Shown here in pieces: positions 31,401 to 63,485 of a DNA stretch of 64,000 bases (within the stretch, counting starts at the first letter, position 1; each line of letters begins with the position of its first letter). The stretch covers positions 1 to 64,000 of the forward strand of contig JANQKI010000166.1 of NCBI GenBank assembly GCA_028281165.1, read 5' to 3'. The stretch is from Opitutaceae bacterium. Its GTDB lineage: Bacteria > Verrucomicrobiota > Verrucomicrobiia > Opitutales > Opitutaceae. The notes beneath the pieces were generated by a model. It saw nothing but the letters and a program-made list of their open reading frames with translations, searched no databases and was not told where the DNA came from. The position numbers and the translations under genes were made by a program.

Positions 31401-31782
31401 GATTGCGAGCGTCGTTGTTGAAGTTGATCACACCAAATCCAGCGGTGCTCTGGCTGAACTCCAAACGGCCTTCAAGGTTGGTGGAATACATGAAGGCTTC
31501 CTGAGCGTCAACGGCTCCTATGTCCTCCATGAATTCAGGAGTGAACACCTGGATTTGAGAAGAGATGTCTTTGATTTGAGTACGCATACGAGTTCCCGAG
31601 AGAGTATCCGTAGCTAGGTAGCCTTGCTCGTCTGCTGAAACTTCGAATGGCGATAGCTCGTAAATATCTTCTTCCTCTGTATCTTGACCTTGAACGTAGA
31701 TCGAACTCGAAGCCAATATCATTGCTAAACTAAATCGTCTAAGAACGACTCGTTGTTTTATGAACGTGGGTTTTGTATCCAT
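28441..31782 (-). CDS. TonB-dependent outer-membrane receptor
   Basis: A 1113-residue receptor with a signal peptide (about 1-32), acidic linker TEEEDIYELSPFEV (42-48), plug domain with LSGTRMRTQIKDISSQIQVF and SGPNSILFSRGDPAGVVDTT, and a beta-barrel ending TNTISF. It is more distant from the other three receptors than the 37.7/41.8-kb pair are from each other. The divergent araC gene at 32165 suggests local control. Imported ligand is probably an oligosaccharide, from its position beside a sulfatase/transporter operon, but this is inference. Confidence 0.94.
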   Translation of the reverse strand: MDTKPTFIKQRVVLRRFSLAMILASSSIYVQGQDTEEEDIYELSPFEVSADEQGYLATDTLSGTRMRTQIKDISSQIQVFTPEFMEDIGAVDAQEAFMYSTNLEGRLEFSQSTAGFGVINFNNDARNRGFGSSVTKSRNFFKTRLQQDGYSTERTTISSGPNSILFSRGDPAGVVDTTLKKAVTGENFGSLSYRIDDNGHNRLVFDYNKAIGEKFAIRLSSLWDRNETLQKPSADDKDGLFLTLTYRPWKGTTFRYYLENFRENSNRSNQRLSYDGASVYLDTIAANPSLAGGFDNSLATLDENGNGSISTAEINNQIRAQGFEGVLLRSGGANPDIAPNRPMFVGGRANTLADGSLPPLDMWNTNLTAVPVTFARFHGVSVVGFGTSPAIPGSDLEPLYTSNSWGYNLREIDTQTNTFSLEQQITEDFFIEVAYNKEEEFNTHFCNICGNNFHLIRVDPNQYLPDGVTPNPNLNRFYVTDRVRGGIENREWETWRAQAAYELDFTDKDSWVKNLGRHNIAFLYQEVEEEEYDLGNNRLLITDDLPVVYSDGRTPHPSPNNARNRAGIRYYLDDPRTTPNGTFGPTLDGAFPGVTDVRGPYNLTFPNGGGANVVTGTSVEPLEGDLLSEEESQVLVWQGFFDLPFGMQAVPFWGERRDTVENFDDVPASRPAIAYDGTFDFSGFQWEETPDEFKDSTVNRGIVLHATNWLSFHYNESENFGTPNGDADPFTNVTIPGEFGDGKDFGVRFGLMENRLNIRLNWFELDNRLQNGSNVDREVRNYAGDIEQAIRADQYWDGNFGDDNLGAIDPQLAGFAGGFDPIDDVGEDFGPDQWGVRKDITSEGLDAEITYNVNDNWVMKLNAGRQETITNNVTTTFIDWVNQRVPAWSAVTDRRPGSFTSGATGWENIDFDGVDENGDGLVDASAGGIPGSLADMYFENTFNSLQSGGTRSAANLFQRINLQENQNGQPIDQAIEWRVNYFTNYKFNEGRFKGFSVGGGFRYRSAPVIGHRPKNILDADGNIELNPDGTPIEVPDFTRPWEGSDELLFDLKIGYRQKIYNDKLDWKVQLNIRNLFDEDDTKAALVDTREEYFPVIFVQEMPRQLILTNTISF

Positions 31783-45645: not shown

Positions 45646-46548
45646 TTGAATACGATAAATTACTCTTTCCCAGATCCCGATAAACTTACCCAAACCCACT
45701 TAATTGGTTCTGATACTACTCGAAAAGTCGTCGAATATTTCGATTTCCCTTTCATGCTTGAAAAACACGGGATCGTTTCTGCCGGACATACTCTTGCTCG
45801 AAAGGGGAATTTCTTTGTCAGAATCAAACCGCTGTTTAGTCAGATTCTCGTCTGCGTCTCCGGGGAGGGAATCATTCTTCTCGATGGGCGCTGGCATCCT
45901 TGCCGCCCGGGTACTGCCTATATTACTCCAGCTCATGCGAAACATGCCTATTTCGCAGCGCCCGGCAAAAGTTGGGAATTTTCATGGATCATCTATCAGG
46001 ATACTGGACCGGAAAATTTCGCCGAAGCCTTCTCCAAAGAGCAGCCCTACCAAAAGCAGGTTGAGCCGGAGCTGCTTTCGTTTCCCTTGCAGGGTCTTTA
46101 TGAGGAAGCCGTTCACTGGCAAGACGAAATTGTCATGAATTCATGGATACATCTGGCTAATACTTATGTGCGCAGAGCATTGGTCGGCGATCAGATCGAT
46201 CCGCGTTTGCGACGTCTCTGGATGCTTGTCGAAAACGAGTTGGCTCAACCTTGGAATTGCTCCGCAATGTCTCGTATAGCCAATATAAGCGAAGAGCACT
46301 TGAGGCGCCTCTGCTGGCAGGCCTACTCGAAAAGTCCTATGCAGCGTCTCAAATGGTTGCGAATCAGGTATGCCTCGGAACTGCTGCTGTATTCGAATTA
46401 TAGCATCGAAAAAATTGCTGAAGAAGTTGGATACAATGATGCTGCCTCCTTAACGCGAGCCTTCAAGAAATCGCACGGAGTGTCGCCTGCTAAATACCGT
46501 CGAAACATTCGGACCCAGTCGTTCGAAAAAGCGGCTCTAGCGCCATAA
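45646..46548 (+). CDS. AraC-family transcriptional regulator
   Basis: A 300-residue AraC protein with a cupin-like sensor (FFVRIKPLFSQILVCVSGEG, YITPAHAKHAYFA) and a C-terminal double helix-turn-helix (WNCSAMSRIANISEEHLRR and KIAEEVGYNDAASLTRAFKK). The start shown is TTG at 45646, the only one that preserves the full sensor; no Shine-Dalgarno sequence is visible. It is related in layout to the AraC gene at 32165 but clearly diverged. The repeated element in its upstream region is the best candidate binding site, which would place the two tandem TonB receptors under its control. Confidence 0.9.
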   Translation: MNTINYSFPDPDKLTQTHLIGSDTTRKVVEYFDFPFMLEKHGIVSAGHTLARKGNFFVRIKPLFSQILVCVSGEGIILLDGRWHPCRPGTAYITPAHAKHAYFAAPGKSWEFSWIIYQDTGPENFAEAFSKEQPYQKQVEPELLSFPLQGLYEEAVHWQDEIVMNSWIHLANTYVRRALVGDQIDPRLRRLWMLVENELAQPWNCSAMSRIANISEEHLRRLCWQAYSKSPMQRLKWLRIRYASELLLYSNYSIEKIAEEVGYNDAASLTRAFKKSHGVSPAKYRRNIRTQSFEKAALAP

Positions 46549-49212: not shown

Positions 49213-50763
49213 ATGAAAGCAATACCCGTACTACTATTTGTTCCGCTTTGCTTCGCGAAGCCGGGTTATGTCCTCGTCCTGCTCCTCGGCACACTATCTC
49301 TAGCTCACCATTCACTATTCTCATCTGCTTCCGCAGATGAACTCCCCGTCAAGATTCTATTTCCAGGAAACTGGGCTGACCCAACTGTTACGAAAGTAGG
49401 GGATACTTACTACCTGACTTCCAACAACGATCACTACACGCCGTCGATTATGGTATTTAAGTCCAAGGATCTTAAACATTGGGAGCCCACGGTTTATACC
49501 AGTCCCAACCAACCTCAAGGTCCCGCCACCGACATAATCAATCACAACGAAAGGCTCTTCATCTATGGCGGCGGTGGAAGAAGGGTGTGGGCTCAGTATT
49601 CGGATGCTCCCTACACGGAATGGTCTGAGCGCATCCGCATCTCGCCAGACGTTCCCCTCCTGATTGATGCCGGACACGTCGTGGGCCGGGACGGCAAGCG
49701 ATATCTCTATGTCGCCAAGGGCGAAATGGTCGAATTAAGCGACGACGGCTTGAGAGTTACGACTCATCCCAAACGTCTCTACCAAGGTTGGGAAATTCCC
49801 GAAGACCTGGCCGTCGAATGCGAGTGCTTGGAAAGCCCGAAATTTTTCTGGCGAGGCGACTACGTCTATCTCGTTAGCGCGGCTGGCGGCACCGTCGGTC
49901 CATCGACCAGTCACATGGCTATCGTAGCCCGAGCGAAGCATCCTGAAGGCCCCTGGGAAAACGCTCCCAACAATCCTGTGATCTGGACGCCTAGCTCGGA
50001 AGAGCCCTATTGGTCAAAGGGTCACGCCACTTTCATCGAAGGACCTGAGGGCGACTGGTTCGCGATCTATCACGGTTATGTTAGAAACCAACGTTCTTGG
50101 GGGCGAGCTACCCTGATCTCTCCACTTAAGTGGACAGACGATGATTGGCCGATGGTAGCGGATGAATGGCCTGAGGATTGGAAGGACGCTCGGGTAGGCT
50201 TCGAATGGCCGATGAGTGACGAATTTGATGGCCAGGAACTCGGTATCCAGTGGCAAGCCTACGAGACTTTCGATAGGGATCGGTATTCATTCAGCAATGA
50301 CGCTCTAACGGTAAAAGCCATCGGCACGGCTCCCGGCGAATCCAATCCCATCACCCTCAACCCGAAGCATCTTTCCTACGAAGTCGAAACCGAGCTATCC
50401 CTCGATGCAAACGTCGAAGCAGGCGTAATCTTTTTCTACAACAAGATCGCGTGGATAACCTTCGGAGTGAAAGACGGTCAGCTTGTTTACACTTTTCGTA
50501 GAGGAAACGGTTACCCAAGGAGAGAGATCGACCTTCCAGATGCCAGCGCCAAGGTTCGCGTCAAGGCCATAAACATGAACCAAGATGTCATCTTCTACTA
50601 TGCCATCGACGAAGGTGATTGGAAAAAATTCGAGCGCTCCAACGACATACAAGGCTTTCAGCACAACGTCTTTGGATCCTTCAGCTCAGTCCGCCCCGGT
50701 ATCTACGCCGTCGGCGATGGAGATGCCCGATTTGAATACTTCCGCTACAGCCAATCCGATTGA
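49213..50763 (+). CDS. Secreted GH43-like glycosidase with C-terminal lectin-like domain
   Basis: A 516-residue protein with an unusually long, two-part hydrophobic leader (about 1-40) ending SSASADE. The catalytic five-bladed propeller has the GH43 triad pattern: Asp56 (NWADPTV), Asp152 (LLIDAGH) and Glu207 (ECLESPKFF). The C-terminal part (about 340-516) begins MSDEFDG and looks like a concanavalin-A-like DUF1349 jelly roll, a common partner of GH43 beta-xylosidase/arabinosidase-type enzymes. It probably cleaves a pentose- or galactose-type side chain outside the cytoplasm. It follows the sulfatase-GH43 fusion by 27 bases and precedes the next sulfatase by 25, consistent with one operon. 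Confidence 0.9.
   Translation: MKAIPVLLFVPLCFAKPGYVLVLLLGTLSLAHHSLFSSASADELPVKILFPGNWADPTVTKVGDTYYLTSNNDHYTPSIMVFKSKDLKHWEPTVYTSPNQPQGPATDIINHNERLFIYGGGGRRVWAQYSDAPYTEWSERIRISPDVPLLIDAGHVVGRDGKRYLYVAKGEMVELSDDGLRVTTHPKRLYQGWEIPEDLAVECECLESPKFFWRGDYVYLVSAAGGTVGPSTSHMAIVARAKHPEGPWENAPNNPVIWTPSSEEPYWSKGHATFIEGPEGDWFAIYHGYVRNQRSWGRATLISPLKWTDDDWPMVADEWPEDWKDARVGFEWPMSDEFDGQELGIQWQAYETFDRDRYSFSNDALTVKAIGTAPGESNPITLNPKHLSYEVETELSLDANVEAGVIFFYNKIAWITFGVKDGQLVYTFRRGNGYPRREIDLPDASAKVRVKAINMNQDVIFYYAIDEGDWKKFERSNDIQGFQHNVFGSFSSVRPGIYAVGDGDARFEYFRYSQSD
49293..49340 (+). repeat. Heptad array plus hairpin in signal-peptide coding region
   Basis: ACTATCT, CTAGCTC, ACCATTC, ACTATTC (49293-49320) abut TCATCTGC-TTCC-GCAGATGA (49321-49340), a perfect 8-bp stem that encodes S-S-A-S-A-D-E in frame. 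A separate self-complementary GCTTCGCGAAGC (49250-49261) lies earlier in the same leader. Confidence 0.75.
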
Positions 50764-50788
50764 GCAAGCTGACCGAGATCCTTACGTC

Positions 50789-52147
50789 ATGAGATTCTTA
50801 CTACTTACCCTTTTACTATTTTCCATTCACCATTTACTATTCTCGGCTGATCGGAACGATCAGCCGAACGTCCTCATGATCATCGTCGATGATCTCAATC
50901 AGTACGTCGGCTACCTCAATCACTACCCCAACGCCAAGACGCCGCACATCGACGCCCTCGCCGAACGCGGTCTCGCTTTTACGCGGGCCTACTGCGCCTC
51001 CCCGCAATGTAATCCCTCTAGGACAGCTGCCTTCTCAGGTCAGCGTCCCTCGACAACCGGCGTCTATGCCAACGGAAGTCGTCATGAAAATGTACTTACA
51101 AAGGATCAGATGCTGACGACCGTCTTCCACAAGGCCGGCTACTATATGGCAGGCGCGGGTAAAATCCATCGCGACGTCGAAGCCGACTTCGGCCACCTCG
51201 ACGCCTACCAGCCCAAGAAATCCGCCATCAAGCCCATCATGGAAAACAAGGGCAATCTCGGCCACCACCGCTGGTCGGAGATCACTAACGGCGTCGAAGC
51301 AGCCGAGGACGAGATGACCGTACGCTTCACCATCGAGCAACTCGAGAAAAAGCGCGACGACCCCTTCTTCCTCATCTGCGGCATCTACAAGCCGCACCTC
51401 TCTTGGAATATCCCGCAAAAGTACTTCGACATGCATCCGCCGGAAAGCCTCCAGCTTCCGCCCATCCTCGAAAACGATCTCGATGACGTCCCCTGGGAAA
51501 GCGCCCAAAAGATCATCAACAAGGGCGATAACATCGAAGGAGCGAAACCTGAAGATTTTCGCGAAGCTCTCCGCGCCTACCTCGCCGCCTCGTCCTATGC
51601 GGATGCTTGCGTAGGCCGCGTCATCGATGCCCTCGATAGAAGTCCCTACGCAGATAATACCGTCATCGTTCTGTGGGGAGATCATGGATACCACCTCGGC
51701 GAGAAGAATCAGCTCGCCAAACGCAAACTCTGGGAAGACGCTAACCGCATCCCTTACCTCTGGATCGCTCCCGGCATCACAACCCCCGGCACTACCAGCA
51801 ATCGCCCCGTCGATCTCATGAGCCTGTATCCAACGCTTTGCGACATAGTAGGTATTCCGCTCCCCGGCCACCTTGAAGGCCCAAGCGTCCGACCCCTTCT
51901 CGAGAATCCTCGCGCCGAGTGGGATCGTCCTGCGGTCATGACCTACTTCCAAAACAACCACGCCGTGCGTACCCAAGAGTGGCGCTACATCCGCTATGCC
52001 GACGGGGAAGAAGAACTCTACGATGTCCTCTCCGATCCCTACGAATGGAACAATCTCGCCGCCCGCCCCGAACTTGAGCCCGTTAAAAAGCAACTCGCCC
52101 AGCGCTTTCCCAAAATCAACGCTCCCGATACCAAGCCCAAAGATTGA
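50789..52147 (+). CDS. Secreted iduronate-2-sulfatase-like S1 sulfatase
   Basis: The frame is open from 50585, inside the previous gene, but the ATG at 50789 starts a clean signal peptide (MRFLLLTLLLFSIHHLLFSA). The 452-residue enzyme has VDDLNQYVGYLNHYPNAKTP, formylglycine motif C74-N-P-S-R78 followed by TAAFSG, GAGKIHRDV, LWGDHGYHLGEKNQLAKRKLWE and a YDVLSDPYEWNNLA end. It resembles the sulfatase half of the fusion protein at 46732. This subfamily acts on 2-O-sulfated uronates and other sugar sulfates in many marine loci; specificity cannot be fixed here. It lies in the co-directional enzyme block. Confidence 0.94.
   Translation: MRFLLLTLLLFSIHHLLFSADRNDQPNVLMIIVDDLNQYVGYLNHYPNAKTPHIDALAERGLAFTRAYCASPQCNPSRTAAFSGQRPSTTGVYANGSRHENVLTKDQMLTTVFHKAGYYMAGAGKIHRDVEADFGHLDAYQPKKSAIKPIMENKGNLGHHRWSEITNGVEAAEDEMTVRFTIEQLEKKRDDPFFLICGIYKPHLSWNIPQKYFDMHPPESLQLPPILENDLDDVPWESAQKIINKGDNIEGAKPEDFREALRAYLAASSYADACVGRVIDALDRSPYADNTVIVLWGDHGYHLGEKNQLAKRKLWEDANRIPYLWIAPGITTPGTTSNRPVDLMSLYPTLCDIVGIPLPGHLEGPSVRPLLENPRAEWDRPAVMTYFQNNHAVRTQEWRYIRYADGEEELYDVLSDPYEWNNLAARPELEPVKKQLAQRFPKINAPDTKPKD
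50815..50867 (+). repeat. Heptad array plus hairpin in signal-peptide coding region
   Basis: ACTATTT, TCCATTC, ACCATTT, ACTATTC (50815-50842) abut TCGGCTGATCG-GAA-CGATCAGCCGA (50843-50867), a perfect 11-bp stem, the longest of the set. It encodes S-A-D-R-N-D-Q-P-N at the start of the mature protein. Confidence 0.8.
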
Positions 52148-52177: not shown

Positions 52178-53863
52178 ATGAAAACTAAACTACAACCTTT
52201 TTCGTTCATCACCATCTTGACCGTCATAGCCTTGGCGACGACGGTTCACCATTCACTATATTCGGCCGAAAGGCCGTCTGTAGCGAGCTCGCCCGGCCTG
52301 AGTCAATCGAATGGGTCGAGACCGAATGTAGTTCTCATCATGGCCGACGATATGGGTTACTCCGACATCGGCTGTTATGGTGGAGAGATTCCGACACCTC
52401 ATATCGACCGGCTTGCCGCTAACGGAATTCGGTTTACTCAATTCTACAACACGGCTCGCTGTTCTCAAACACGCGCCTCTCTTCTCACAGGTCTTTATCA
52501 ACATCAGACGGGCATGGGAGTCCTATCTGAAACGCCCCAGGAAGAGATTTATCCCGAGTCTCAAGCCTATGGATACACACGTTCTCTCAATTACAATTGC
52601 GTCACCATCGCAGAGGTTCTTGGCGAAGCAGGCTATCGCGCCTACATAGGAGGGAAATGGCATCTTGGCTACCACGGTCAACACAAGTGGCCCAATCAGC
52701 GTGGTTTTGAAAAATTCTATGGTTCTATCGCCGGGGCCACTAGCTACTTTCGTCCCAGCGGTCTTCGATCTGTATCGCTAAACAATGATATGCTGCCTCC
52801 TCCGACAGATCCGGATTACTACACCACAGACGCCTTTACTGACCACCTCATCAAGTTTATTGAAGAGCAGGAGGACGATGCGCCTTTCTTCGGCTACCTA
52901 GCTTTTACCGCCCCGCACTGGCCGCTTCACGCCCGAGAAGAGGACATTCGGAAATTCGTGGGAAAATACCTCGATGGCTGGGACGCTCTCCGGGCAGAGC
53001 GTTGGCAGCGGCAGTTGGCTATGGGCATCGTAAAGCCCGAATGGGGATTATCCCAGCGCGACGATGGAGCCCGTAGTTGGAACATGCTTACGGATCAGCA
53101 AAAGAAAGAGCTCGATTATCGTATGGCCGTCTATGCTGCTATGGTCCATCGCATGGACTATAATATAGGCAAGCTGCTAGATTTTCTCGAAAGAAAGGGC
53201 GAACTGGAAAACACCCTGATCTTCTTTCTCTCCGACAATGGGGGTTGCGCCGAGCCCTACAAAGATCTTGGTGGGGGCAAATTCGAAAACATAAACGATC
53301 CCAGCAAAGGTGGAGCTGCTAAAGACAACGGCTCATCTTACGGAACAGGCTGGGCCAATGCCTCTAACACCCCTTTCCGCCGCTACAAGGCCCGTCTGCA
53401 TGAAGGCGGTATAGCAACCCCGCTCATTATTCACTGGCCATCAGGAATGGAAGCCCAGCCCGGTTCGTTGACAGATGCTCCCGGATTCGTTGCGGATGTT
53501 ATGCCTACTATTCTTGATGCGACAGGAGCGAAGTATCCGAAAACATATCACAATGGCAGCAAAATCCACCCGCTTCGATCCACAAGCCTGATGCCCGTTA
53601 TCAAGACGGGGACTCGCGAGCAGCCCGCATGGATGCATTGGGAGCACTACGGAGACCGCGCCGCTCGCCACCAGGACTGGAAAGCCCTCTTCAACAAGAA
53701 AACCAAACAATGGGAGCTCTACGACCTCGCCAGCGATCGCACTGAATCCATCAATCTTGCCGAGAAAGAACCTGAGCTGCTCGCCGTGATGATCGAAAAG
53801 TGGGAGACTTGGGCCAACGCTAACCACGTGCTTCCAAAAAATCTATCGACCTCGCGTCACTAG
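52178..53863 (+). CDS. Secreted arylsulfatase-A-like S1 sulfatase with CSQTR motif
   Basis: A 561-residue sulfatase. The signal peptide (about 1-30) ends HSLYSAE. A low-complexity segment (SSPGLSQSNGSRPN) precedes the core MADDMGYSDIGCYGGEIPTP. The expected formylglycine motif reads C95-S-Q-T-R99 followed by ASLLTG, with Gln where Pro or Ala is normal. GGKWHLGYHG, FLSDNGGC and NASNTPFRRYKARLHEGG are otherwise intact. It is a close paralogue of the gene at 55415, which has C-C-P-T-R. The Gln could impair maturation or reflect a different maturase. It is co-directional with the surrounding secreted enzymes. Confidence 0.92.
   Translation: MKTKLQPFSFITILTVIALATTVHHSLYSAERPSVASSPGLSQSNGSRPNVVLIMADDMGYSDIGCYGGEIPTPHIDRLAANGIRFTQFYNTARCSQTRASLLTGLYQHQTGMGVLSETPQEEIYPESQAYGYTRSLNYNCVTIAEVLGEAGYRAYIGGKWHLGYHGQHKWPNQRGFEKFYGSIAGATSYFRPSGLRSVSLNNDMLPPPTDPDYYTTDAFTDHLIKFIEEQEDDAPFFGYLAFTAPHWPLHAREEDIRKFVGKYLDGWDALRAERWQRQLAMGIVKPEWGLSQRDDGARSWNMLTDQQKKELDYRMAVYAAMVHRMDYNIGKLLDFLERKGELENTLIFFLSDNGGCAEPYKDLGGGKFENINDPSKGGAAKDNGSSYGTGWANASNTPFRRYKARLHEGGIATPLIIHWPSGMEAQPGSLTDAPGFVADVMPTILDATGAKYPKTYHNGSKIHPLRSTSLMPVIKTGTREQPAWMHWEHYGDRAARHQDWKALFNKKTKQWELYDLASDRTESINLAEKEPELLAVMIEKWETWANANHVLPKNLSTSRH
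52248..52276 (+). repeat. Partial heptad array plus hairpin in signal-peptide coding region
   Basis: ACCATTC then ACTATATTC (a heptad with two extra bases) run into CGGCC-GAAA-GGCCG (52263-52276), a perfect 5-bp stem with a GAAA tetraloop. It encodes S-A-E-R-P. The array is shorter than in neighbouring genes. Confidence 0.6.
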
Positions 53864-53925
53864 TTACTACGAGTCGTTGTGCAGCTAATGACCCTATTTG
53901 CCTCATAAGGTTGCCCCCATTTGTC

Positions 53926-55350
53926 ATGAATTTCAAATTACATCTAGTCCTCACCCTCTTTTCGCTATTCACTGCTTGCAATACGCTCTTCGCGTCCGCC
54001 TCGGACGCTCCAAACATCCTTATTTTCGTCGGCGACGATATGACCTATCGCGATTGCGGACCTTACGGCAACGCCGACATGGTGACGCCCAACATCGACC
54101 GTTTCGCCTCAGAGGGCATGTGTTTCGATTCCATGTACACTTCCACTGCGATGTGCGTTCCGACTCGCGCTCAGTTATGGTCGGGAATGTATCCAGTTCG
54201 TGGAGGTTGCTACCCAAATCACAGCCAACTCTACGACGAAGCGAAGCCGCTTTCCCTTCACCTCAAGGAACTCGGCTACCGCGTTGGGGCCATGGGCAAG
54301 AAGGGCTCCAACCCGACCCCTCTCTACGAATTCGATTGGACCAGCGGCATGCTCAAGCCCGAGACCATCGAAGAAGCCCGTCAATTCATCCAAGCGCCTG
54401 CCGATCAGCCCTACATGCTCTGGGTCGGCTCTAATCAGCCGCACACGCCCTACAACACGGGAGACCGCAGTCTCTACCCGGCGGACGAAATCACCGTTCC
54501 ACCCTACATGGCCGACACCCCCGAAACCCGAGCCGAGCTCGTCAAATACTACGCCGAAATCTCAGAGCTCGACCGCGAGTTCGGTCTATTCCTCGAATTT
54601 GTCGAAGATTCCGGCAAGGCCGACAACACCATTGTAATCTTCACCAGCGAGCAGGGTAGTTCCATCCCTTTCGGCGGTAAGTGGTCCTGTTACGAAAATG
54701 GTCTCAAGACCGCTTGGATCATGCGTTGGCCTGGTAAAATAAAACCCGGCACCCGCACGTCCGCCCAAACTCAATACGTCGACTTCGCCCCGACCATGAT
54801 CGAAATCGCGGGTGGCGATCCTACCAAAGCCTCTGCAGGAATTCCTGACGCCGACGGTAAGATCACCATGGACGGCAAGAGCTTCCTTTCCGTTATGACC
54901 GGAAAGTCCAAAAAACTCCGCAACCACGTCTTCGGCTGCCATACCACCATTGGCGTAGCAGGCGCTACTGAAGAAGGCTATGGCATCCGTTCCATCAGCG
55001 ACGGCAAATACAAGCTCATCGTCAACCTGCAGAACGAAAACACCTTCTCTTGCGCTAACGCCCGCCCCAATAACCAGCCTCTCAAAAGCTGGCGCGAAGC
55101 TGATGACACATGGGCTAACCAACGAGCTGCCTTCTATGTCAATCGCCCTCATCGAGAATTCTACAAGATCAAAGCTGATCCCTACGAACTCGAAAACCTG
55201 ATCGACAAAAGGAAACATGCCAAACGAATCGCCAAACTCCAATCCGTATTGGACGAATGGATGCGCCAACAAGGCGACCTCGGCATCGAAACCGAACTTA
55301 ACGGTCAATACCGCCTCCAACGCTACATCAGATCTCTAAACGAATCCTAA
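53926..55350 (+). CDS. Secreted S1-family sulfatase
   Basis: TTG at 53911 is possible, but the ATG at 53926 (MNFKLHLVLTLFSLF) starts a normal signal peptide ending LFASASDA. The 474-residue product contains VGDDMTYRDCGPYG, formylglycine motif C77-V-P-T-R81 with AQLWSGMYP, AMGKKGSNPTPL in place of GKWHLG, and IFTSEQGSSIPFGGKW in place of the usual SDNG/SDHG. These substitutions mark a distinct S1 subfamily. It is probably extracellular or periplasmic. A repeat-like hairpin after its stop codon may separate it from the next sulfatase gene. Confidence 0.92.
   Translation: MNFKLHLVLTLFSLFTACNTLFASASDAPNILIFVGDDMTYRDCGPYGNADMVTPNIDRFASEGMCFDSMYTSTAMCVPTRAQLWSGMYPVRGGCYPNHSQLYDEAKPLSLHLKELGYRVGAMGKKGSNPTPLYEFDWTSGMLKPETIEEARQFIQAPADQPYMLWVGSNQPHTPYNTGDRSLYPADEITVPPYMADTPETRAELVKYYAEISELDREFGLFLEFVEDSGKADNTIVIFTSEQGSSIPFGGKWSCYENGLKTAWIMRWPGKIKPGTRTSAQTQYVDFAPTMIEIAGGDPTKASAGIPDADGKITMDGKSFLSVMTGKSKKLRNHVFGCHTTIGVAGATEEGYGIRSISDGKYKLIVNLQNENTFSCANARPNNQPLKSWREADDTWANQRAAFYVNRPHREFYKIKADPYELENLIDKRKHAKRIAKLQSVLDEWMRQQGDLGIETELNGQYRLQRYIRSLNES
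53992..54008 (+). repeat. Hairpin at signal-peptide junction
   Basis: GCGTCCG-CCT-CGGACGC is a perfect 7-bp stem (53992-53998 with 54002-54008) encoding A-S-A-S-D-A in the same phase as in the neighbouring genes. The preceding heptads are weak (GCTATTC and GCTCTTC recognisable). Confidence 0.6.
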
Positions 55351-55414: not shown

Positions 55415-57049
55415 ATGAAAATCAGAATACTTCTACTAATTTCACTATTCTTAATTTACCATTTCACATTCTCATCTGCTCAAGCAGATGACCGTCCGAA
55501 TATAGTGCTCATCATGGCCGACGACATGGGCTATTCCGACATCGGCTGCTACGGCGGTGAAATTCCCACGCCCCACATCGACCGGCTTGCCGCTGAAGGC
55601 GTTCGCTTTTCCCAGTTCTACAATACCTCTCGCTGTTGTCCTACCCGTGCATCACTCCTCACCGGACTCTACCAGCATCAAGCGGGTATCGGCGAAATGA
55701 CCGGCCGCAAGCCAGACTCCACTGAAGGCTTCATCGGCCACCTCAACGAACACTGTGTCACTATCGCCGAAGCCCTTCGTCCCGCCGGCTACCGCACCTA
55801 CATGGCGGGCAAATGGCATGTCGGCTCCAAGGAAAAAGCCTGGTGGCCCATGCAACGCGGCTTCGATCGCTTCTATGGTCTAACTGGCGGTTCTTCGAGC
55901 TTCTTCCGTCCTAAGGGCCTCTACGACGGTAATGAGCTTCTCCCTATCCCCGACGATCCGAACTACTACATCACGGACCGTTTCACTGATCACGCCCTCA
56001 AGTATCTTCGAGAACACAACAGTGAAACGCCGTTCTTCCTCTACCTTGCTTTTACCGCTCCTCACTGGCCGCTGCATGCTCGGGACGAGGATATCGCGAA
56101 GTTCCGCGGCAAATATACGCAGGGATGGGACGAACTACGCAAAAGCCGCTTCGCTAGACAGGTCGAACTCGGTCTTGTATCCGAGGAGCAAGGACTCTCG
56201 CCACGCGACTTCGAGGTGCCCGCTTGGGACACCCTAGCCGACCAAGAGAAAGACGACCTCGACCACCGTATGGCCGTTTACGCGGCCATGATCTATCGCA
56301 TGGACCACAACATCGGTCGCGTCATCGATCAACTCGAAGAAAGCGGCGAGCTGGACAATACGCTCATCGTTTTCCTTTCCGACAACGGCGGCTGCCCGGA
56401 ACCTTGGAACACGACCACCCCACGCGGCAACTCTCACCTCGGCGGCGGTACCATCGAAGACATCTACAATCCGGATAAAGGCGGAGCCATCTCCTACGGC
56501 CAAGGCTGGGCTAACGCCTCCAACACTCCCTTCCGACGCTACAAGACGCAAAGCCACGAAGGTGGTATCTCGACTCCCTTCATCATGCATTGGCCAAAGG
56601 GCATGAAAATCGACAAAGGCCAAGTCGTCCACACCCCTGGCCATCTCATCGACGTCATGCCGACCTTTCTCGAACTGGCTGGGGCCACGTATCCAAGATT
56701 CGTCGACGGTCATCACATTCATCCGCTTTCAGGCAAGTCCCTCACTCCCGTTCTCGAAACTGGCGACCGCGATCCGCATGACTGGCTCTTTTGGGAGCAC
56801 CGTCTCGAAGCGGCTGTCCGTCACGGAGACTGGAAAGCCATCCATCGTCAGCCCACCGACCGTTGGTTCCTCTTCAATCTCGGTCAAGACCGCACCGAGA
56901 CCAACGATCTCGCCGAAGCGTATCCAGAAATTCTAGATCTCATGAAACGCAAATGGTGGGACTGGGCCCTTACCCACAACGTCACCCCCGAAAAGCTCCC
57001 TCCCAGACCAACCCCCACAGAAGCCATCGATTTCAGAGCCAAACCATAG
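55415..57049 (+). CDS. Secreted arylsulfatase-A-like S1 sulfatase
   Basis: A 544-residue sulfatase with signal peptide MKIRILLLISLFLIYHFTF ending SSAQADD. It has MADDMGYSDIGCYGGEIPTP, formylglycine motif C74-C-P-T-R78 and ASLLTGLYQHQAG, MAGKWHVGSKEKAWW, FLSDNGGCPEPW and NTPFRRYKTQSHEGGI. All expected active-site blocks are present. It is closely similar to the protein at 52178, except that the canonical Pro is retained here, which makes the pair a natural comparison. It is followed after 37 bases by the GH67/GH20-like gene. The substrate is likely a sulfated sugar at a chain end. Confidence 0.95.
   Translation: MKIRILLLISLFLIYHFTFSSAQADDRPNIVLIMADDMGYSDIGCYGGEIPTPHIDRLAAEGVRFSQFYNTSRCCPTRASLLTGLYQHQAGIGEMTGRKPDSTEGFIGHLNEHCVTIAEALRPAGYRTYMAGKWHVGSKEKAWWPMQRGFDRFYGLTGGSSSFFRPKGLYDGNELLPIPDDPNYYITDRFTDHALKYLREHNSETPFFLYLAFTAPHWPLHARDEDIAKFRGKYTQGWDELRKSRFARQVELGLVSEEQGLSPRDFEVPAWDTLADQEKDDLDHRMAVYAAMIYRMDHNIGRVIDQLEESGELDNTLIVFLSDNGGCPEPWNTTTPRGNSHLGGGTIEDIYNPDKGGAISYGQGWANASNTPFRRYKTQSHEGGISTPFIMHWPKGMKIDKGQVVHTPGHLIDVMPTFLELAGATYPRFVDGHHIHPLSGKSLTPVLETGDRDPHDWLFWEHRLEAAVRHGDWKAIHRQPTDRWFLFNLGQDRTETNDLAEAYPEILDLMKRKWWDWALTHNVTPEKLPPRPTPTEAIDFRAKP
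55444..55491 (+). repeat. Heptad array plus hairpin in signal-peptide coding region
   Basis: ACTATTC, TTAATTT, ACCATTT, CACATTC (55444-55471) abut TCATCTGC-TCAA-GCAGATGA (55472-55491), a perfect 8-bp stem encoding S-S-A-Q-A-D-D. Arms match those at 49321-49340 but the loop differs. Confidence 0.75.
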
Positions 57050-57086: not shown

Positions 57087-59234
57087 ATGAAACACGCCAT
57101 TCTTTTCATCTTTCTCGTCTCCTCGCTATCAGCAGAGGTGAAGCTGCCCCCAGAATGGAGGGATGATCCTGTCGCGAAATATGCGGTCGATCGATGGAGC
57201 GAAAAGACAAGACAAGTCTCGATCCATTCGATAAACTCAGGCCAAGCGAGCTCCCCCACTATAGAAGTGGATCTAGTATCCAATGATCTAGTACAGGCTG
57301 AAGGTTTCGCCCTGGAACCAGCAAGCGATAATGGCGCGGCTGAATTTACGCTGTCCGTCAGCGATAGGCGCGGCCTTCTCTACGGCCTCGACGATTTCGC
57401 CGAACAATGGAATGCGGCCAAGGGCGACTCGGCTCTTGTTTTATCGCGTGAACGAAGTCCGCGCGTATCGTTTCGAGCGCTGAAATTCAATCTGCCCTGG
57501 CTGTCCTACCGTCGTGGCGAAGCCCTGCAAACCCACACTGAAACCGCGAGGGATCTTGAAATGTGGGAGGATTACCTCGACATGATGGTGGCCAATCGCT
57601 TCAATACTCTCACTCTTTGGAGCCTGCATCCTTTCGCTTTTATGGTGAAAGCTCCTGGGTATCCGGAAACCAATGACTTTTCTCCCGAAGAAATGGCGGA
57701 TTGGCAGAATTTCTGGAAAAGCCTCTTCGCTCTGGCCGACCAACGCGACATCGACGTCTATGTATTCAATTGGAACATCTTCACGACCTCGACCTTCGCG
57801 AAAAAGCATAACATCGGCAGCGACGGCGGATTTTTTGGTGAAGCGACCCACAGCGAAGTCCTCGAAGATTATACACGAAAGATCGTCGCCGAAACATTGA
57901 AGACCTACCCGAGTCTCGATGGAATCGGCATCACGCTTGGCGAACGCATGGGCGGGATGACGCCTGAAGAACGTAAAGACTGGCTCGGCCGAACGATCAT
58001 TGCCGGGATCAGAGAATCCGGTCGCCCCGTCGATTTCTTCTATCGCGCCCCGCTGTCGGCCAATAAGGGTTCAGGCGGCTCCACCGATCCCGTTGTCGAA
58101 CGCATGACCCGCGCTCAAGTGGAAGGCATGGACGATTTTCCAGGCAAGATCCATTTCGGTCTCAAGTTCAACCAGTCTCACGGACATGGGTCGCCATTTC
58201 TTGAATACGTCCATGGCGGACCCGTTACAGACGCCTATTGGAAGCCCTTGCCCAAGAATTACGATGTCGTCTTCACCATTCGAAACGAGGAGTTTTTCAT
58301 CCTGCGTTGGGGACAGCCTGACTTCATCCGGGAGTTGCTCGTCAACAATACGGCCCCTTGGGTCGGTGGATTTATCATCGGATCAGAGGTCTACATACCA
58401 GCGAAAGACTACATAACGCCATCCGGTTTCCCGAAGGACTGGCGCTGGGCGTTCGAGCGCCAATGGCTTTTCTACGATCTCTGGGGTCGCCTCCTCTACG
58501 ATCCCGCTACGCCGGATTCTGTATTCGGACAACACCTTGCGAGTCGATTCGACCTGCCTCTCTCCGAGGGAAGGGAAATCCTGGATGCGTTCAGTGCGGC
58601 GTCTCTCGCTCAATTGCACACCACGCGCATGATCAAGGCCACAGCGGATGGCTGGCTCTACAGCGAAGGCCATCTCGGGAAGAGCGCCCGAAAAACGCGC
58701 AACGCCGCTTTCTTGACGATCGATACCTTCGTCACTCGCAAACCCCAGGATCGACGTTACATAAGTATCCATGATTATGTGACGCAAAACTTGGAAATCG
58801 CGAAAAACAGGGTGGCCCCTCCAGCGGTTGCCGAGGATCTCGAGCGCAACGCTCGCGTTGCCTTGGAAACAGTTGCCGGTGTAATTGGGAGAAATCCCAA
58901 CAACACCTTGCTCGAACACGAATTGAACGACGTTCGAGCGTGGGGCCATCTAGGACTATTTCTAGCCGACAAGATCAGAGGCGGCATCGCCCTGGAGCGC
59001 TTTCGCGCAGGACACGGAAAACCCTACAAAGACGAAGCCATTGCGCATCTTTCGGCAGCTCGCGATCACTGGGCGGATCTTTCCGAGGTAACCCAGCAAA
59101 ACTATCCCGACCCCATCCCTTACCTATGGGATGACGCGTTCTCATGGGCGAAATTCCTGCCGGAAGCGGAAGCTGACATTGAAATCGCTCGCAAAGCCAA
59201 AGTCGGATTCTTCCCGGAGGTCATCACGCCATAA
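57087..59234 (+). CDS. Secreted alpha-glucuronidase/hexosaminidase-like TIM-barrel enzyme
   Basis: A 715-residue exported protein (signal peptide about 1-16). The N-terminal alpha/beta domain ends SDRRGLLYGLDDFAEQWN, as in the non-catalytic domain that precedes the barrel in GH20 and GH67 enzymes. The barrel follows with ALKFNLPWLSY, NRFNTLTLWSLHPF, DVYVFNWNIF and GIGITLGERMGGMTPEERKDWL, whose Glu is a catalytic candidate. The C-terminal third is helical. It is homologous in plan to the protein at 59368. Similar proteins are usually annotated as alpha-glucuronidase-family glycosyl hydrolases, but true activity is unproven. It lacks the heptad-hairpin seen in the preceding genes. Confidence 0.75.
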   Translation: MKHAILFIFLVSSLSAEVKLPPEWRDDPVAKYAVDRWSEKTRQVSIHSINSGQASSPTIEVDLVSNDLVQAEGFALEPASDNGAAEFTLSVSDRRGLLYGLDDFAEQWNAAKGDSALVLSRERSPRVSFRALKFNLPWLSYRRGEALQTHTETARDLEMWEDYLDMMVANRFNTLTLWSLHPFAFMVKAPGYPETNDFSPEEMADWQNFWKSLFALADQRDIDVYVFNWNIFTTSTFAKKHNIGSDGGFFGEATHSEVLEDYTRKIVAETLKTYPSLDGIGITLGERMGGMTPEERKDWLGRTIIAGIRESGRPVDFFYRAPLSANKGSGGSTDPVVERMTRAQVEGMDDFPGKIHFGLKFNQSHGHGSPFLEYVHGGPVTDAYWKPLPKNYDVVFTIRNEEFFILRWGQPDFIRELLVNNTAPWVGGFIIGSEVYIPAKDYITPSGFPKDWRWAFERQWLFYDLWGRLLYDPATPDSVFGQHLASRFDLPLSEGREILDAFSAASLAQLHTTRMIKATADGWLYSEGHLGKSARKTRNAAFLTIDTFVTRKPQDRRYISIHDYVTQNLEIAKNRVAPPAVAEDLERNARVALETVAGVIGRNPNNTLLEHELNDVRAWGHLGLFLADKIRGGIALERFRAGHGKPYKDEAIAHLSAARDHWADLSEVTQQNYPDPIPYLWDDAFSWAKFLPEAEADIEIARKAKVGFFPEVITP

Positions 59235-59272
59235 GAATAATAGAAACCTCACTTAAACTCGACTTATTAAAA

Positions 59273-59351
59273 TAACCATAGAAAGCACAAGAAACACAAA
59301 ACGAAATAATAGTCCGTATCGAATTCTGTGTCTTTTGTGAATTTTGTGGTT
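59273..59351. repeat. AACCACAG-type inverted repeat, copy 2
   Basis: TAACCATAGAAAGCACAAGA at the left and its imperfect complement ending TTTTGTGGTTA at 59351 form a long AT-rich hairpin between two genes. It belongs to the same family as 17276-17376 and 61537-61662. Confidence 0.65.
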
Positions 59352-59367
59352 AAAAAAACAATTACAA

Positions 59368-61536
59368 GTGAAACGTGCAATTCTCCCATTTTTCTTCTTA
59401 GCTTCTCTCCAAGCGGAGCCAGTCACGCTCTACTACGACGAAACCTCGCCGCAGATTTCCTTCGCCGCGGATGATCTGGAAATCGCTCTCGAAAAGCGCG
59501 GTTTCGACGTAAAGGTCAGTGCTCTCGGTACCCTCGGCTCGCATCAAGAAAACCCCTTCGTCGTTCTAGCTCTCGATGACAATCGGCTCCTCCTCGATTC
59601 TCTCGACAAAGCCGACGGCGACCGCGTCGAGCCGCTGGCAGACCAAGGCTACGCCCTCCGCACGACGCGCGACGGCGTATCCGGATACTGGATCTTCGGC
59701 GGCGACGAAACCGGCGCCATGTATGGCGGCCTCGAAATCGCCGAACGCATCGAGCGTCACGGCTTTGCGGAACGCTACAACGAAGACCACGAGCCCTACA
59801 TCGCCAAGCGCGGCATCAAGCTCAATATCCCTCTCGATTCCCGAGCTCCCAGCTACGACAGCGACGGCGACTCCGCCCACTTCAACGTCAAGCACATGTG
59901 GGACCTGTCCTTCTGGCATGAATACATCGATACGCTCGCCCGCTATCGCTACAATGTGATTTCCCTCTGGAACTCCCACCCCTTCAACGCGCTTTGCTCC
60001 ATCCCCGAGTATCCCGATACCGCTCTGCCCGACGTCCATGATTACGACGGTCTGGTCAAGAAGATGACCATGGAAGAGAAGGTCGCTTTCTGGCGCGAGG
60101 TTTTCGACTACGCCACCGATCGCGGCTTCGACATCTATTGGTTCAATTGGAACGTCTATGCCTATGGCGCCAACGGCAAATACGGTATCGAAGACAACCC
60201 ACGCAACGAGGCTGTCAAAGAGTACTCCCGCAAAGCCCTCTACGCCTTCCTCAAGACCTATCCGCAAATCGATGCTTTCGGAGTTAGCGCGGGCGAGCAC
60301 TTCGCTGGCTTTCCCGCCGCGGATCGCGAAAAATGGATGCGCGAGGTCTGGGGCGAAGCGATGCTCGACTACAAGCGCGATCATCCAGAGCACGGCTTCT
60401 TCTTCATCCACCGTTTCCTCATGACCGACATCACTCCGATAGCGGATCACTGGAACGACTTCCCGCTGCCCTGGGACATTTCCTTCAAATATGGCGTCGG
60501 CCACATGCACGGCTACCACAATCCCGACTTCATTTACGCCAAAGGCGTGATGCGAGGACTCGACGACCACAACAAAAAGACCTGGCTCAACCTCCGCAAC
60601 GACGACATCTTCTATTTTCGCTGGGGAGATCCCGAATACGCTCGCAAGTACGTGATTAACTTCCCGGTAAAAGACCGCTACCTCGCCGGTTACTACATGG
60701 GCACCGACGGCTACGTATTCGCCAAAACTTTCTCGTATCAGGAAAAGTACGACAACCTCAATAACCGACTCGAAATCGACAAGCACTGGTACAATTTCCT
60801 CATCTGGGGCCGCATGGGCTATGATCCGAAAACCGCCGAGTCCTTCTTCATAGAGCAGCTCGCCGAACGTTTTCCCGATATAAATACCCGTCGACTCTAT
60901 AATGCATGGAAAATCGCCTCCAACATCTTTCCCACCGTCAGTCAAACCATCTGTCGCGACAACGACGCCCAATGGTGGGTCGAAGGCTGCCACTCGAAAT
61001 TTGGATACATCGACATCGAGCGACTACTCGGCTTCGCACCCCAACCGGGAACGCCCGTTCACAGCATCGCCGACTACGCCCAGCTCGTTTCCAGCGGGAA
61101 AGCGGTGACTAAGACAACACCTCTGCAAAAAGCCGAAGACCTCCACTCCCTCGCCGACGAAACGGAATTTCTCATCCGAGACCTGAACGCTTCTGATGGA
61201 AGCGAACTGTATTTGCTCCTCAACGACATGCGAGCCATGGCAAACGCTAGTCGCTTCTACGCGGAAAAGATCAGAGGAGCCCTATATCACAAGCTCGGCG
61301 ACAAGAAAAAAGCCATCTCCAGTCTCGAAAAAGCCCTCGTTCACGCCACCGAATACGCCGATCTCGCCTCTGCAGTCTACAAGGACCAGCACATGGCTCG
61401 CCACAACCCTGAAGGCAAAAATTCCGGCATAAAGGAAAACAAATTCACTTGGGCCGGCTTCGTCGAAGGCGCCCGCCAAGACCTTGAAATCGCAAAATCT
61501 AAAAGGCAGGGACGGACCGCCCACTTGAAATTTTGA
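59368..61536 (+). CDS. Secreted alpha-glucuronidase/hexosaminidase-like TIM-barrel enzyme
   Basis: The frame is open from a TTG at 59344 inside a repeat, but GTG at 59368 yields a proper signal peptide (MKRAILPFFFLASLQA) and 722 residues. The N-terminal domain includes ISFAADDLEIALEKRGF and GYALRTTRDGVSGYWIFGGD, then comes a barrel with RGIKLNIPLDSRAPSYD, RYNVISLWNSHPF, DIYWFNWNVYAYG and DAFGVSAGEHFAGFP (candidate catalytic Glu), plus a helical C-terminus. It is a diverged homologue of the neighbour at 57087; both have a WNSHPF/WSLHPF strand and an FNWN strand. It may remove uronic acid or related residues from oligosaccharides. Codons are strongly C-ending. Confidence 0.78.
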   Translation: MKRAILPFFFLASLQAEPVTLYYDETSPQISFAADDLEIALEKRGFDVKVSALGTLGSHQENPFVVLALDDNRLLLDSLDKADGDRVEPLADQGYALRTTRDGVSGYWIFGGDETGAMYGGLEIAERIERHGFAERYNEDHEPYIAKRGIKLNIPLDSRAPSYDSDGDSAHFNVKHMWDLSFWHEYIDTLARYRYNVISLWNSHPFNALCSIPEYPDTALPDVHDYDGLVKKMTMEEKVAFWREVFDYATDRGFDIYWFNWNVYAYGANGKYGIEDNPRNEAVKEYSRKALYAFLKTYPQIDAFGVSAGEHFAGFPAADREKWMREVWGEAMLDYKRDHPEHGFFFIHRFLMTDITPIADHWNDFPLPWDISFKYGVGHMHGYHNPDFIYAKGVMRGLDDHNKKTWLNLRNDDIFYFRWGDPEYARKYVINFPVKDRYLAGYYMGTDGYVFAKTFSYQEKYDNLNNRLEIDKHWYNFLIWGRMGYDPKTAESFFIEQLAERFPDINTRRLYNAWKIASNIFPTVSQTICRDNDAQWWVEGCHSKFGYIDIERLLGFAPQPGTPVHSIADYAQLVSSGKAVTKTTPLQKAEDLHSLADETEFLIRDLNASDGSELYLLLNDMRAMANASRFYAEKIRGALYHKLGDKKKAISSLEKALVHATEYADLASAVYKDQHMARHNPEGKNSGIKENKFTWAGFVEGARQDLEIAKSKRQGRTAHLKF

Positions 61537-61662
61537 TTAACCACAGAAAGCGCAAGAAACACATAAATTACAGCCATAACGTTATCATCTTCGTGATTCT
61601 TTGCGCCTCTTCGTGGCCAAAACTAATCGCATATTTTGTGCCTTCTGCGCTTTTTGTGGTTA
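61537..61662. repeat. AACCACAG-type inverted repeat, copy 3
   Basis: TTAACCACAGAAAGCGCAAG on the left faces CTTCTGCGCTTTTTGTGGTT on the right (end near 61662), with a related CTTCGTGATTCTTTGCGCCT stretch between them. It fills the gap between two genes, and it explains the false upstream extension of the next reading frame. Confidence 0.7.
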
Positions 61663-61676
61663 AAAATATACTACAC

Positions 61677-63485
61677 ATGAAACTCTATAAATCACTCTTT
61701 CTTCCAATGGCGTTACTCGTCGTATCCGCCTACGCCAACTACAACGCCGATCCCGATTCCAAGCCCGCCCAAACCGTTCTCGACGAGGAACTCTACGACC
61801 TCTCCGTCCTCAACGCTTCCGACGGGAGCTACTACCTAAGCGGCACCTGGATCGGCAACGAAACCAAAACGCCTTTATATAAATCCGACGACCTCAAGAA
61901 CTGGTCCTTCATTGGCGAGATCCTTTCCGCCAAAGGTATGCTCTCCAATCCAGAGCTTTACCAGCATGACGGTCAATTCTACCTCCTTGTCACCGAACGC
62001 GAAGGCGCCTCTCTGTACGTATCCAAAAAGCCAAGCGGCAAGTACAAGCGCCACGCCCGTCTCGGCGAAGGCATCAAAAACGCGTCATTGTTTTTCGATG
62101 ACAACCAGGCCTATCTCGTCTATGGCGGCGGACACATCGTCAAGCTCTCCAACGATCTCAGGCAAACCGTCGGCTCCACCGAATGGCTCCATCCTTCCTT
62201 CGACCGTCCGCGTCCCGCCTCTCCCGGCTGGGCCACTGAACGGGCTCAGATGCTGCGCATCGGCAGCGAAGCCGCCCAGATCATTAAGGAAAACGGCCGC
62301 TACTACCTGCTGGCCAGTGAACGCATCACCCGCCTCAACGACGTGATGTACGATATTCTCTGCGCGTCCTCAGATTCTCTATACGGCCCGTACACCGAGC
62401 GACGCCTCGCCTTCATGCACGCTGGCAGCGGCAGCGTCTTCAAGGCAAAGGATGGCCAGTACTACTGCGCTTTTTCTGGCCAAGCCGACGACAAGTATGT
62501 CATCGAAACCAAGAAACCCTTCATAGCTCCCGCTCAGTTTATTCGTGACAACCAGTCGATGGGCTTCACTGGCGAATTCTTCTACGAAAAGCCACCCATT
62601 GGCAACACCCGGAACCGCCTTCCACACGTTGAAGTGCGCGACCCCTCTATCTGCAAGGGACCCGACGGCTGGTACTATCAAGTCGGAACTGAGAACTGGG
62701 TGGATATCGAGTTCGGCAAGCCTCGCATCATGATGCGCCGCTCCAAGGATCTCTGGAATTGGGAAGACGTCGGTCACCTCGTCGATACCGACGATATCGG
62801 AGACCAGTTCGACGGACAGCCCTTGCGTGTCGAGAAAGGTCAGCGGCTCAACATGTGGGCTCCAGAAATTCAATACATCCAGTCGAGGGACGTTTTCATG
62901 CTATCGGTCAGCATTCCTCGCCTGCCGCGAGACCCAGGCACTTTGAATCGCGGGGACGGTACGCTTTCCCAAACCTGGATCTTCAAGGGCAAAGGCCCGA
63001 AGGGTCCCTTCAAGAACATCTTCGACCGAGCCGCCCACGACGGCATCGACGGCTTCTTCTTTGAAGAGGATGACGGACGTGTCTACTATCTCTACGGCTC
63101 GAACTACATTGCTGAGATGAATGACGATCTCACCGGCTTTAAAGAAGAGTTCCGCGAGCTCAAAGGCCTGCATGGTATCGAAGGCATGTCGCTGGTCAAA
63201 ATCGACGGCAAGTACCTGCTCGCCCGTGCCGACAACACCGGCGGTCCCGGTACGGCCAGCTACGAAGCCATCTACGGCGTATCTGACAATGTGTATGGAC
63301 CCTACAAATACAGAGGGTCCGTTCCGCATTGCGGCCACACCACCATGTTCGCCGGACACGACGGAAAATGGCGCCTCACCATGTTCGGCAGCGATTCCCA
63401 CGCCCCCGTTCGCCACGGCATGGGCATCCTCCAATTCGAACTCGACCAATACGACCGCATCATCGTGAAAGAGGACACTCCCTAA
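61677..63485 (+). CDS. Secreted GH43-like protein with two beta-propellers
   Basis: The frame extends up to 61533 through a repeat, but the ATG at 61677 starts a signal peptide (MKLYKSLFLPMALLVVSAYA). The 602-residue product has two GH43-like propellers, about 28-295 and 310-600. The second has a full candidate triad: Asp322 (VEVRDPS), Asp458 (GIDGFFF) and Glu502 (GIEGMSL). In the first, the pKa-modulating Asp is replaced by Asn135 (KNASLFF) and the acid site may be Glu188 (TERAQM), so it may bind rather than cleave. It is exported and codirectional with the other enzymes of the block. Confidence 0.85.
   Translation: MKLYKSLFLPMALLVVSAYANYNADPDSKPAQTVLDEELYDLSVLNASDGSYYLSGTWIGNETKTPLYKSDDLKNWSFIGEILSAKGMLSNPELYQHDGQFYLLVTEREGASLYVSKKPSGKYKRHARLGEGIKNASLFFDDNQAYLVYGGGHIVKLSNDLRQTVGSTEWLHPSFDRPRPASPGWATERAQMLRIGSEAAQIIKENGRYYLLASERITRLNDVMYDILCASSDSLYGPYTERRLAFMHAGSGSVFKAKDGQYYCAFSGQADDKYVIETKKPFIAPAQFIRDNQSMGFTGEFFYEKPPIGNTRNRLPHVEVRDPSICKGPDGWYYQVGTENWVDIEFGKPRIMMRRSKDLWNWEDVGHLVDTDDIGDQFDGQPLRVEKGQRLNMWAPEIQYIQSRDVFMLSVSIPRLPRDPGTLNRGDGTLSQTWIFKGKGPKGPFKNIFDRAAHDGIDGFFFEEDDGRVYYLYGSNYIAEMNDDLTGFKEEFRELKGLHGIEGMSLVKIDGKYLLARADNTGGPGTASYEAIYGVSDNVYGPYKYRGSVPHCGHTTMFAGHDGKWRLTMFGSDSHAPVRHGMGILQFELDQYDRIIVKEDTP

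Follow-up and report, generated by a model that had tools for sequence, protein, structure and literature searches.

Among relatives of known structure, the closest to the gene pair analysed here belongs to glycoside hydrolase family GH138; it is BPa0997, an α-galacturonidase that targets rhamnogalacturonan II and has E294 and E361 as its catalytic residues. The same broad fold is found in the GH67 α-glucuronidases, where the glutamate that acts as acid is located on strand 4, and in the GH20 and GH84 hexosaminidases, which carry a catalytic acid pair on strand 4. The paper on GH138 is that of Labourel et al. (2019), to which PMC12282258 refers.

The window (the whole 64,000-nucleotide stretch of an Opitutaceae contig that was analysed) contains two neighbouring open reading frames, A and B, which almost certainly encode kin of the GH138 superfamily. 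The explanation that we prefer, and to which we assign a probability of about 0.5, is that A and B are an exported pair of this superfamily, acting as exo-α-uronidases on a sulfated, pentose-containing polysaccharide and using acids after strands 7 and 8 in place of the E361 carboxylate. The observations behind it are homology, predicted fold, clade structure, residue states, co-occurrence, adjacency and a natural fusion. An initial annotation of the window had described the pair as GH67/GH20-like TIM-barrel enzymes of unclear specificity that could be new families acting on uronate-containing sulfated glycans, and the present analysis partly supports that description.

Gene setting and architecture of A and B

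Both reading frames are open at the coordinates first proposed for them (Table 1). ORF B can also be read from a TTG at 59344, which gives 730 aa (frame 59344-61536 open); we consider the GTG at 59368 the likelier start because the resulting N-terminus, MKRAILPFFFLASLQAEP, resembles that of A, MKHAILFIFLVSSLSAE. Residue numbers of B are counted from the TTG. Judged by eye, both N-termini likely hold putative signal peptides, and the two proteins would be exported. Aligned end to end, A and B are 25% identical across 762 columns (E 2e-55), in keeping with the strong divergence noted before, and the LW[S/N].HPF and FNWN strands that had been described are present in both translated ORFs. The strand-4 motifs are TLGERMGG in A and SAGEHFAG in B.

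Table 1. Coordinates of the A and B reading frames, their candidate active-site residues and the surrounding genes of the window.
Feature	Position	Strand	Remarks
AraC-family regulator	45646..46548	+	head of same-strand cluster
Sulfatase with GH43-like domain, one ORF	46732..49185	+	same-strand cluster
GH43, β-xylosidase-type C-terminal domain	49213..50763	+	same-strand cluster
Sulfatase	50585..52147	+	listed ORF overlaps upstream GH43 by 179 bases; real start probably further in than listed
Sulfatase	52178..53863	+
Sulfatase	53911..55350	+
Sulfatase	55415..57049	+	directly upstream of A
ORF A	57087..59234	+	715 aa from ATG; GH138-related clade A; open reading frame confirmed
A E286	57942..57944	+	follows strand 4; corresponds to BPa0997 E294; likely general acid
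A S364	58176..58178	+	after strand 6; BPa0997 E361 position; no carboxylate
A E401	58287..58289	+	follows strand 7, in an RNE motif; candidate for nucleophile or base
A E434	58386..58388	+	follows strand 8, in a GSE motif; candidate for the base
ORF B	59368..61536	+	722 aa, likelier GTG start; GH138-related clade B
B E318	60295..60297	+	after strand 4; equivalent of BPa0997 E294
B G386	60499..60501	+	BPa0997 E361 position; no carboxylate
B D420	60601..60603	+	after strand 7, RND motif
B D455	60706..60708	+	after strand 8, GTD motif
GH43-like protein	61533..63485	+	directly downstream of B
547-aa protein	63529 to window end		L066:2030-3673; no Pfam or NCBIfam match; adjoins the A/B cluster
1113-aa protein	28441..31782	-	no Pfam match; weakly TonB-dependent receptor-like

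No Pfam or NCBIfam model reached its cut-off in either protein. The Pfam scan of A returned zero matches, and that of B returned sub-threshold matches to Glyco_hydro_67N (18.1 bits against a cut-off of 24.3), to Glyco_hydro_20b as the sole GH20 domain (13.2 against 26.1) and to a TPR model. AlphaFold models built from alignments of 17 A-type and 15 B-type sequences (A, pLDDT 80.3 and pTM 0.85; B, pLDDT 85.6 and pTM 0.88) each have an N-terminal α/β domain, then a barrel, then a helical C-terminal part. A is thus composed of a GH67N/GH20b-like N-terminal domain, a TIM barrel and a helical C-terminal part, and the architecture of B is the same. The non-catalytic N-terminal domain predicted earlier is borne out by this α/β domain together with the weak matches of B. 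The initial annotation was also right to see in A and B two diverged TIM-barrel enzymes, glycosidases that belong by fold to the group of uronidases and hexosaminidases.

The same-strand run that holds A and B also contains five sulfatases, one of which carries a GH43-like domain, together with a GH43 and a further protein that is GH43-like. Pfam identifies nine sulfatase genes in the window, which agrees with the sulfated-glycan setting suggested before, and the contig continues with two more. In the genome as a whole (G000, a 5.1-Mb draft), the Pfam sulfatase model has 124 matches. The genome encodes two A-type proteins, three B-type proteins and one C-like protein (clade C is described below), and no match in it comes near the GH138 cut-off, the best scoring 103 bits.

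Relationship to GH138 and distribution of the two clades

The NCBIfam GH138 model NF049878 matches A at 126 bits and B at 91 bits, scores that are significant and lie 10-14 fold under its cut-off of 1300; as a yardstick, the eight of nine GH138-type rows that were scanned score 890-1020 bits, which is also below 1300, all nine rows being cut by locus ends. Single-sequence searches of the PDB returned BPa0997 as the sole significant relative (E 7e-21 for A and 3e-11 for B), and profiles of the 17 A-type and 15 B-type sequences matched it at E 6e-48 and 6e-44, respectively; the A profile also matched GH20 enzymes in their N-terminal domain, with E values of 6e-6 and weaker. GH138 was likewise the best Foldseek match of the A model (E 2.3e-25). 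Superposed on BPa0997, A gives a VIA Z of 26.6 (rmsd 3.5, 624 residues aligned) and B a VIA Z of 29.1 (rmsd 3.2, 639 residues aligned). Among the families in the matches listed, the runners-up are GH115 (Z 14.8 for A, 17.5 for B) and GH67 (Z 14.7 and 17.0). No GH67 or GH20 domain exceeds its Pfam cut-off in A or B, and a GH115 domain is absent from the Pfam matches of both.

The comparison with GH67 and GH20 made in the initial annotation therefore placed the pair in the right fold group and missed GH138, its nearest relative by profile and by fold. Assignment to GH67 or GH20 was rejected because of the fold ranking and the curated cut-offs. Plain membership of GH138, the best fold in the structure-based assignment that had been proposed as a check, was rejected as well, because the scores stay far below the cut-off and the strand-6 glutamate is missing, and assignment to a family of known function was not reached. 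That A and B are new families is plausible, given these two departures from GH138 and the absence of any Pfam or NCBIfam match above cut-off, a judgement made against those two collections rather than the CAZy list. The available excerpts of five open-licence PMC papers (PMC12282258, PMC8910321, PMC8857213, PMC6499787 and PMC11036162) describe neither clade, and GH138 is absent among the matches listed in the portions of the marine-glycan literature covered.

In a maximum-likelihood tree of 42 rows, the A (17), B (15) and GH138-type (9) sequences each form one side of a well-supported branch, and the A and B clades have long stems. The branch that separates A and B from GH138 and the L008 protein has a support of 96/88, a value to be read with caution, as the branches of GH138 and of L008 are long and meet there. 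The nine GH138-type rows, eight of which were scored, come from the same bacterial family, and the N-termini of four were trimmed; truncated A sequences (L011/L050) and L028 were excluded from A1/A2. A second tree, of 45 rows and including other phyla, keeps GH138 and the further clade C apart, and in it A and B need two changes each because the L134 protein, labelled B, is an A-B fusion that groups with A. Clade C consists of more distant proteins of about 870-920 aa that adjoin A, often on both sides, at L090, L092, L095, L100, L103 and L117 (Spirosoma), with L008 on contig C93 of the present genome; a glutamate lies one column past the GH138 E361 position in 14 of its 14 rows.

A relative of A (E up to 0.001, a threshold that includes GH138 and B types) occurs in 51 of 150 genomes of the same bacterial family. 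In a collection of 84,980 genomes, a single-sequence scan of contigs found no relative whereas a profile scan did, and 328 of the 352 candidate stretches encode one; with both counts in hand, A and B are not chance reading frames. The best 80 of the 328 stretches were kept, making 79 loci from Bacteroidota, Planctomycetota, Verrucomicrobiota, Acidobacteriota and others. Archaeal plasmids carry relatives too, and the archaeal copies that are annotated bear the label 'hypothetical protein'.

With A called at 440 bits or more and B at E up to 1e-60, the 150 family genomes contain A in 15, B in 12 and both in 8, such that B is present in 8 of the 15 genomes with A and in 4 of the 135 others (Fisher p 5e-7, kinship ignored). 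At these frequencies the group is a common one, yet neither A nor B scores above any Pfam or NCBIfam cut-off. B is present at 13 of 77 A loci of the wider scan and, where more than 5 kb is available on either side of A, at 9 of 47, and the majority of A genes thus lack a nearby B; at eight loci, mostly from Spirosoma, A adjoins clade C proteins and not B. Where A and B are neighbours, which they are in several phyla, the arrangement is tight: in each of the 12 unfused pairs the two genes share a strand, in 7 pairs they lie within 55 bp of each other, and both gene orders occur. A 4.3-kb contig of Bacteroidia bacterium PG1894_40 (L134:96-4340, plus strand) encodes a 1415-aa natural fusion in which A spans residues 6-713 (854 bits) and B residues 713-1403 (772 bits), each half with its own motifs. 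B is also found with no A nearby, on a 15-kb contig (L061). Taken together, we regard A and B as likely functional partners.

Candidate active-site residues

Residue states were counted across 41 aligned rows, of which 17 are A, 15 are B and 9 are GH138-type; L008 was excluded. The strand-4 glutamate is present in every row of each group (17/17, 15/15 and 9/9). At the position of BPa0997 E361 after strand 6, all 17 A rows have serine, all 15 B rows alanine or glycine and all 9 GH138-type rows glutamate, and this register is the same in other alignments too. The column of A E401 holds glutamate in 17/17 A rows, aspartate in 15/15 B rows and leucine in 9/9 GH138-type rows, and the column of A E434 has the same three states in the same counts, with glutamine in BPa0997 by profile alignment. 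In the column that follows A E401, glutamate occupies 9/9 GH138-type rows, aspartate or glutamate 17/17 A rows and aspartate 13/15 B rows, and a second alignment sets the strand-7 register differently. Given this acid beside the E401 column and the shift in register, GH138 may have a strand-7 acid too. The differences from GH138 that are firm across the aligned sequences are the loss of the strand-6 glutamate and the gain of a strand-8 acid. The two glutamates singled out by the initial annotation, A E286 and B E318, do lie at the end of strand 4 and are likely acids, but they are shared with GH138, and the distinguishing acids are instead E401 and E434 in A and D420 and D455 in B.

These states extend beyond the first alignment. 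R320 and K360 are kept in 41/41 rows and in all 81 further A rows from the wider scan, and E286, E401, D402 and E434 are each present in 81/81. We note that the search patterns of that scan covered S364/H365, whose state in the 81 rows is thus partly by construction, and did not cover E286, E401, D402 or E434; 4 rows of the A set and 2 B rows duplicate earlier ones, and the L134 fusion is counted twice, once with the 81 A rows and once with the 16 B rows. Fifteen further stand-alone B rows have aspartate after both strand 7 and strand 8 in 15/15 and the strand-4 glutamate in 14/15, which brings the stand-alone B rows overall to 30/30 for both aspartates and 29/30 for the glutamate; in the exception, L081:5579-7771, aspartate replaces the glutamate. 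Two A-type proteins of a Haladaptatus plasmid have aspartate and serine at the strand-4 position and retain the acids that follow strands 7 and 8; conservation of these acids is therefore no poorer than that of the strand-4 glutamate. The Haladaptatus copies and the L081 protein weigh against the explanation that we prefer.

By predicted secondary structure, the carboxylates of A and B lie 2-4 residues past strands 4, 7 and 8 in both models. The corresponding loops of the A model are poorly predicted, with block pLDDT values of 68 (E286), 61 (S364), 56 (E401) and 58 (E434). One BPa0997 chain in the PDB is named as an E361S construct. On these alignments we give roughly even odds that the catalytic site is rearranged relative to GH138, the odds being held down by the GH138 acid beside the E401 column and by the low pLDDT of the A loops.

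Substrate, alternative explanations and comparison with known families

Sulfatases lie near the A/B pair at L068, L085 and L097 (by Pfam) and at L046 and L049 (by clustering with the sulfatases of the window). Other pairs are found near GH78, apiosidase-like and Sde182-like genes (G024), near GH78 and Sde182-like genes (Seonamhaeicola L125), or near an enolase-type gene and a GH141-type insertion-domain protein (L084). A B paralogue of the same genome (L061:11130-15473, contig C157) is flanked by two GH28 genes, and an island on the plasmid of Haladaptatus sp. QDMS2 (NZ_CP119793.1; L166 and L167) encodes two proteins of A type and three of C type; also in the island are GH88, a sugar ABC transporter and four mandelate racemase/muconate lactonizing enzymes. 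Several other A loci have no obvious carbohydrate genes among the neighbours scanned. Few families recur in the neighbour scan (apiosidase-like 4, DUF5060 4, sulfatase 3 and enolase-type 2, among 25 of 113 families listed), which covered 105 representatives of 198 same-strand neighbours after exclusion of clusters 0 and 1, which from their size and order are presumably SusC and SusD, and of proteins outside 220-1000 aa; accordingly, the scan names no single substrate. The varied neighbourhoods suggest several specificities among the relatives. GH28, GH88 and dehydratases of the mandelate racemase/muconate lactonizing type serve the breakdown of uronic and other sugar acids, and these neighbours, together with the kinship to GH138, favour α-uronides, galacturonic acid first. 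We lean towards a putative specificity of A and B for uronides.

A and B are very probably active glycosidases, and they probably work like GH138, GH115 and GH67 enzymes. In the explanation that we prefer, the exported pair would remove an α-linked uronic acid (galacturonic favoured, glucuronic possible) from the end of a sulfated, pentose-containing polysaccharide, from which the adjoining sulfatases would take off sulfate and the GH43 enzymes pentoses. The strand-4 glutamate, A E286 or B E318 at the GH138 E294 position, probably protonates the leaving group. The role of the missing E361 carboxylate would then be taken, probably, by E401/E434 in A and D420/D455 in B, and the conserved arginine of strand 5, lysine of strand 6 and arginine after strand 7 could hold the carboxylate of the substrate. 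We infer these activities, substrates, residue roles and the export from the observations above; the open-licence PMC literature, in the excerpts available, yielded no activity for any A or B member. A wider proposal, which we advance only tentatively, is that A and B are two unclassified families, sisters of GH138, whose second carboxylate moved from strand 6 to strands 7 and 8, that they act as partners on two linkages of one acidic, often sulfated glycan, and that with C they make up a four-clade superfamily rewired more than once. Should the explanation that we prefer be right, the pair would add two enzyme classes for dismantling polysaccharides that are both sulfated and acidic, a carbon pool of large size and poorly explained, and would be an example of catalytic residues shifting position inside one fold.

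A more conservative explanation is that A and B are distant GH138 α-galacturonidases of near-identical chemistry, in which a strand-7 acid common to the three clades is the working residue and the remaining acids only bind substrate. The GH138 fold over most of the length, the strand-4 glutamate, the Arg and Lys positions kept in all 41 rows and the acid beside the A E401 column in every GH138-type row would all fit it; the 10-14 fold deficit in score, the Ser, Ala or Gly at the E361 position in all 32 A and B rows and the separate clades with long stems weigh against it, and we consider it rather unlikely. Less probable again is that the pair are α-glucuronidases in the manner of GH67 and GH115, acting on glucuronic acid side chains. 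For such an activity speak the next-best ranking of the GH115 and GH67 folds, the weak GH67N match of B and the finding that the genome has no GH115 match, so that this job could be vacant, but GH138 is closer by about 11 Z units and the GH28 genes adjoining the B paralogue point to galacturonic acid.

The tight pairing and the single fusion would also be compatible with one member being a non-enzyme that binds or scaffolds the other. We think this very unlikely, since the strand-4 glutamate and both aspartates of B are retained in the stand-alone rows at the frequencies given above and B occurs on the L061 contig with no A nearby. Hexosaminidase-type catalysis, substrate-assisted as in GH20 and GH84, would draw on the N-terminal domain and fold group in common; it is the least credible of the alternatives, the strand-4 motif being LGE or AGE instead of an acid pair and the GH20/GH84 chains ranking far under GH138 in the fold search.

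Set against the known families, the A/B pair resembles the GH20/GH84 hexosaminidases distantly in fold, with lower similarity than to GH138, and differs from them in missing the catalytic acid pair. The likeness to the GH67 α-glucuronidases lies in the N-terminal domain, the barrel and the glutamate acid on strand 4, whereas the fold Z is 14.7 for A and 17.0 for B and the GH67N match is sub-threshold in B and absent from A. The GH115 α-glucuronidases, whose substrates are uronic acids, share the N-terminal domain, TIM barrel and helical part, yet match much more weakly in fold and have no Pfam match in either protein. With GH138 (BPa0997, PDB 6HZE/6HZF/6HZG), A and B have in common the fold over about 620-640 residues, the strand-4 glutamate and the positions of the arginine on strand 5 and the lysine on strand 6; they are set apart from it by an identity of 17-19%, by separate clades, by scores far under the family cut-off, by the replacement of the strand-6 glutamate with Ser or Ala/Gly and by their extra acids after strands 7 and 8.
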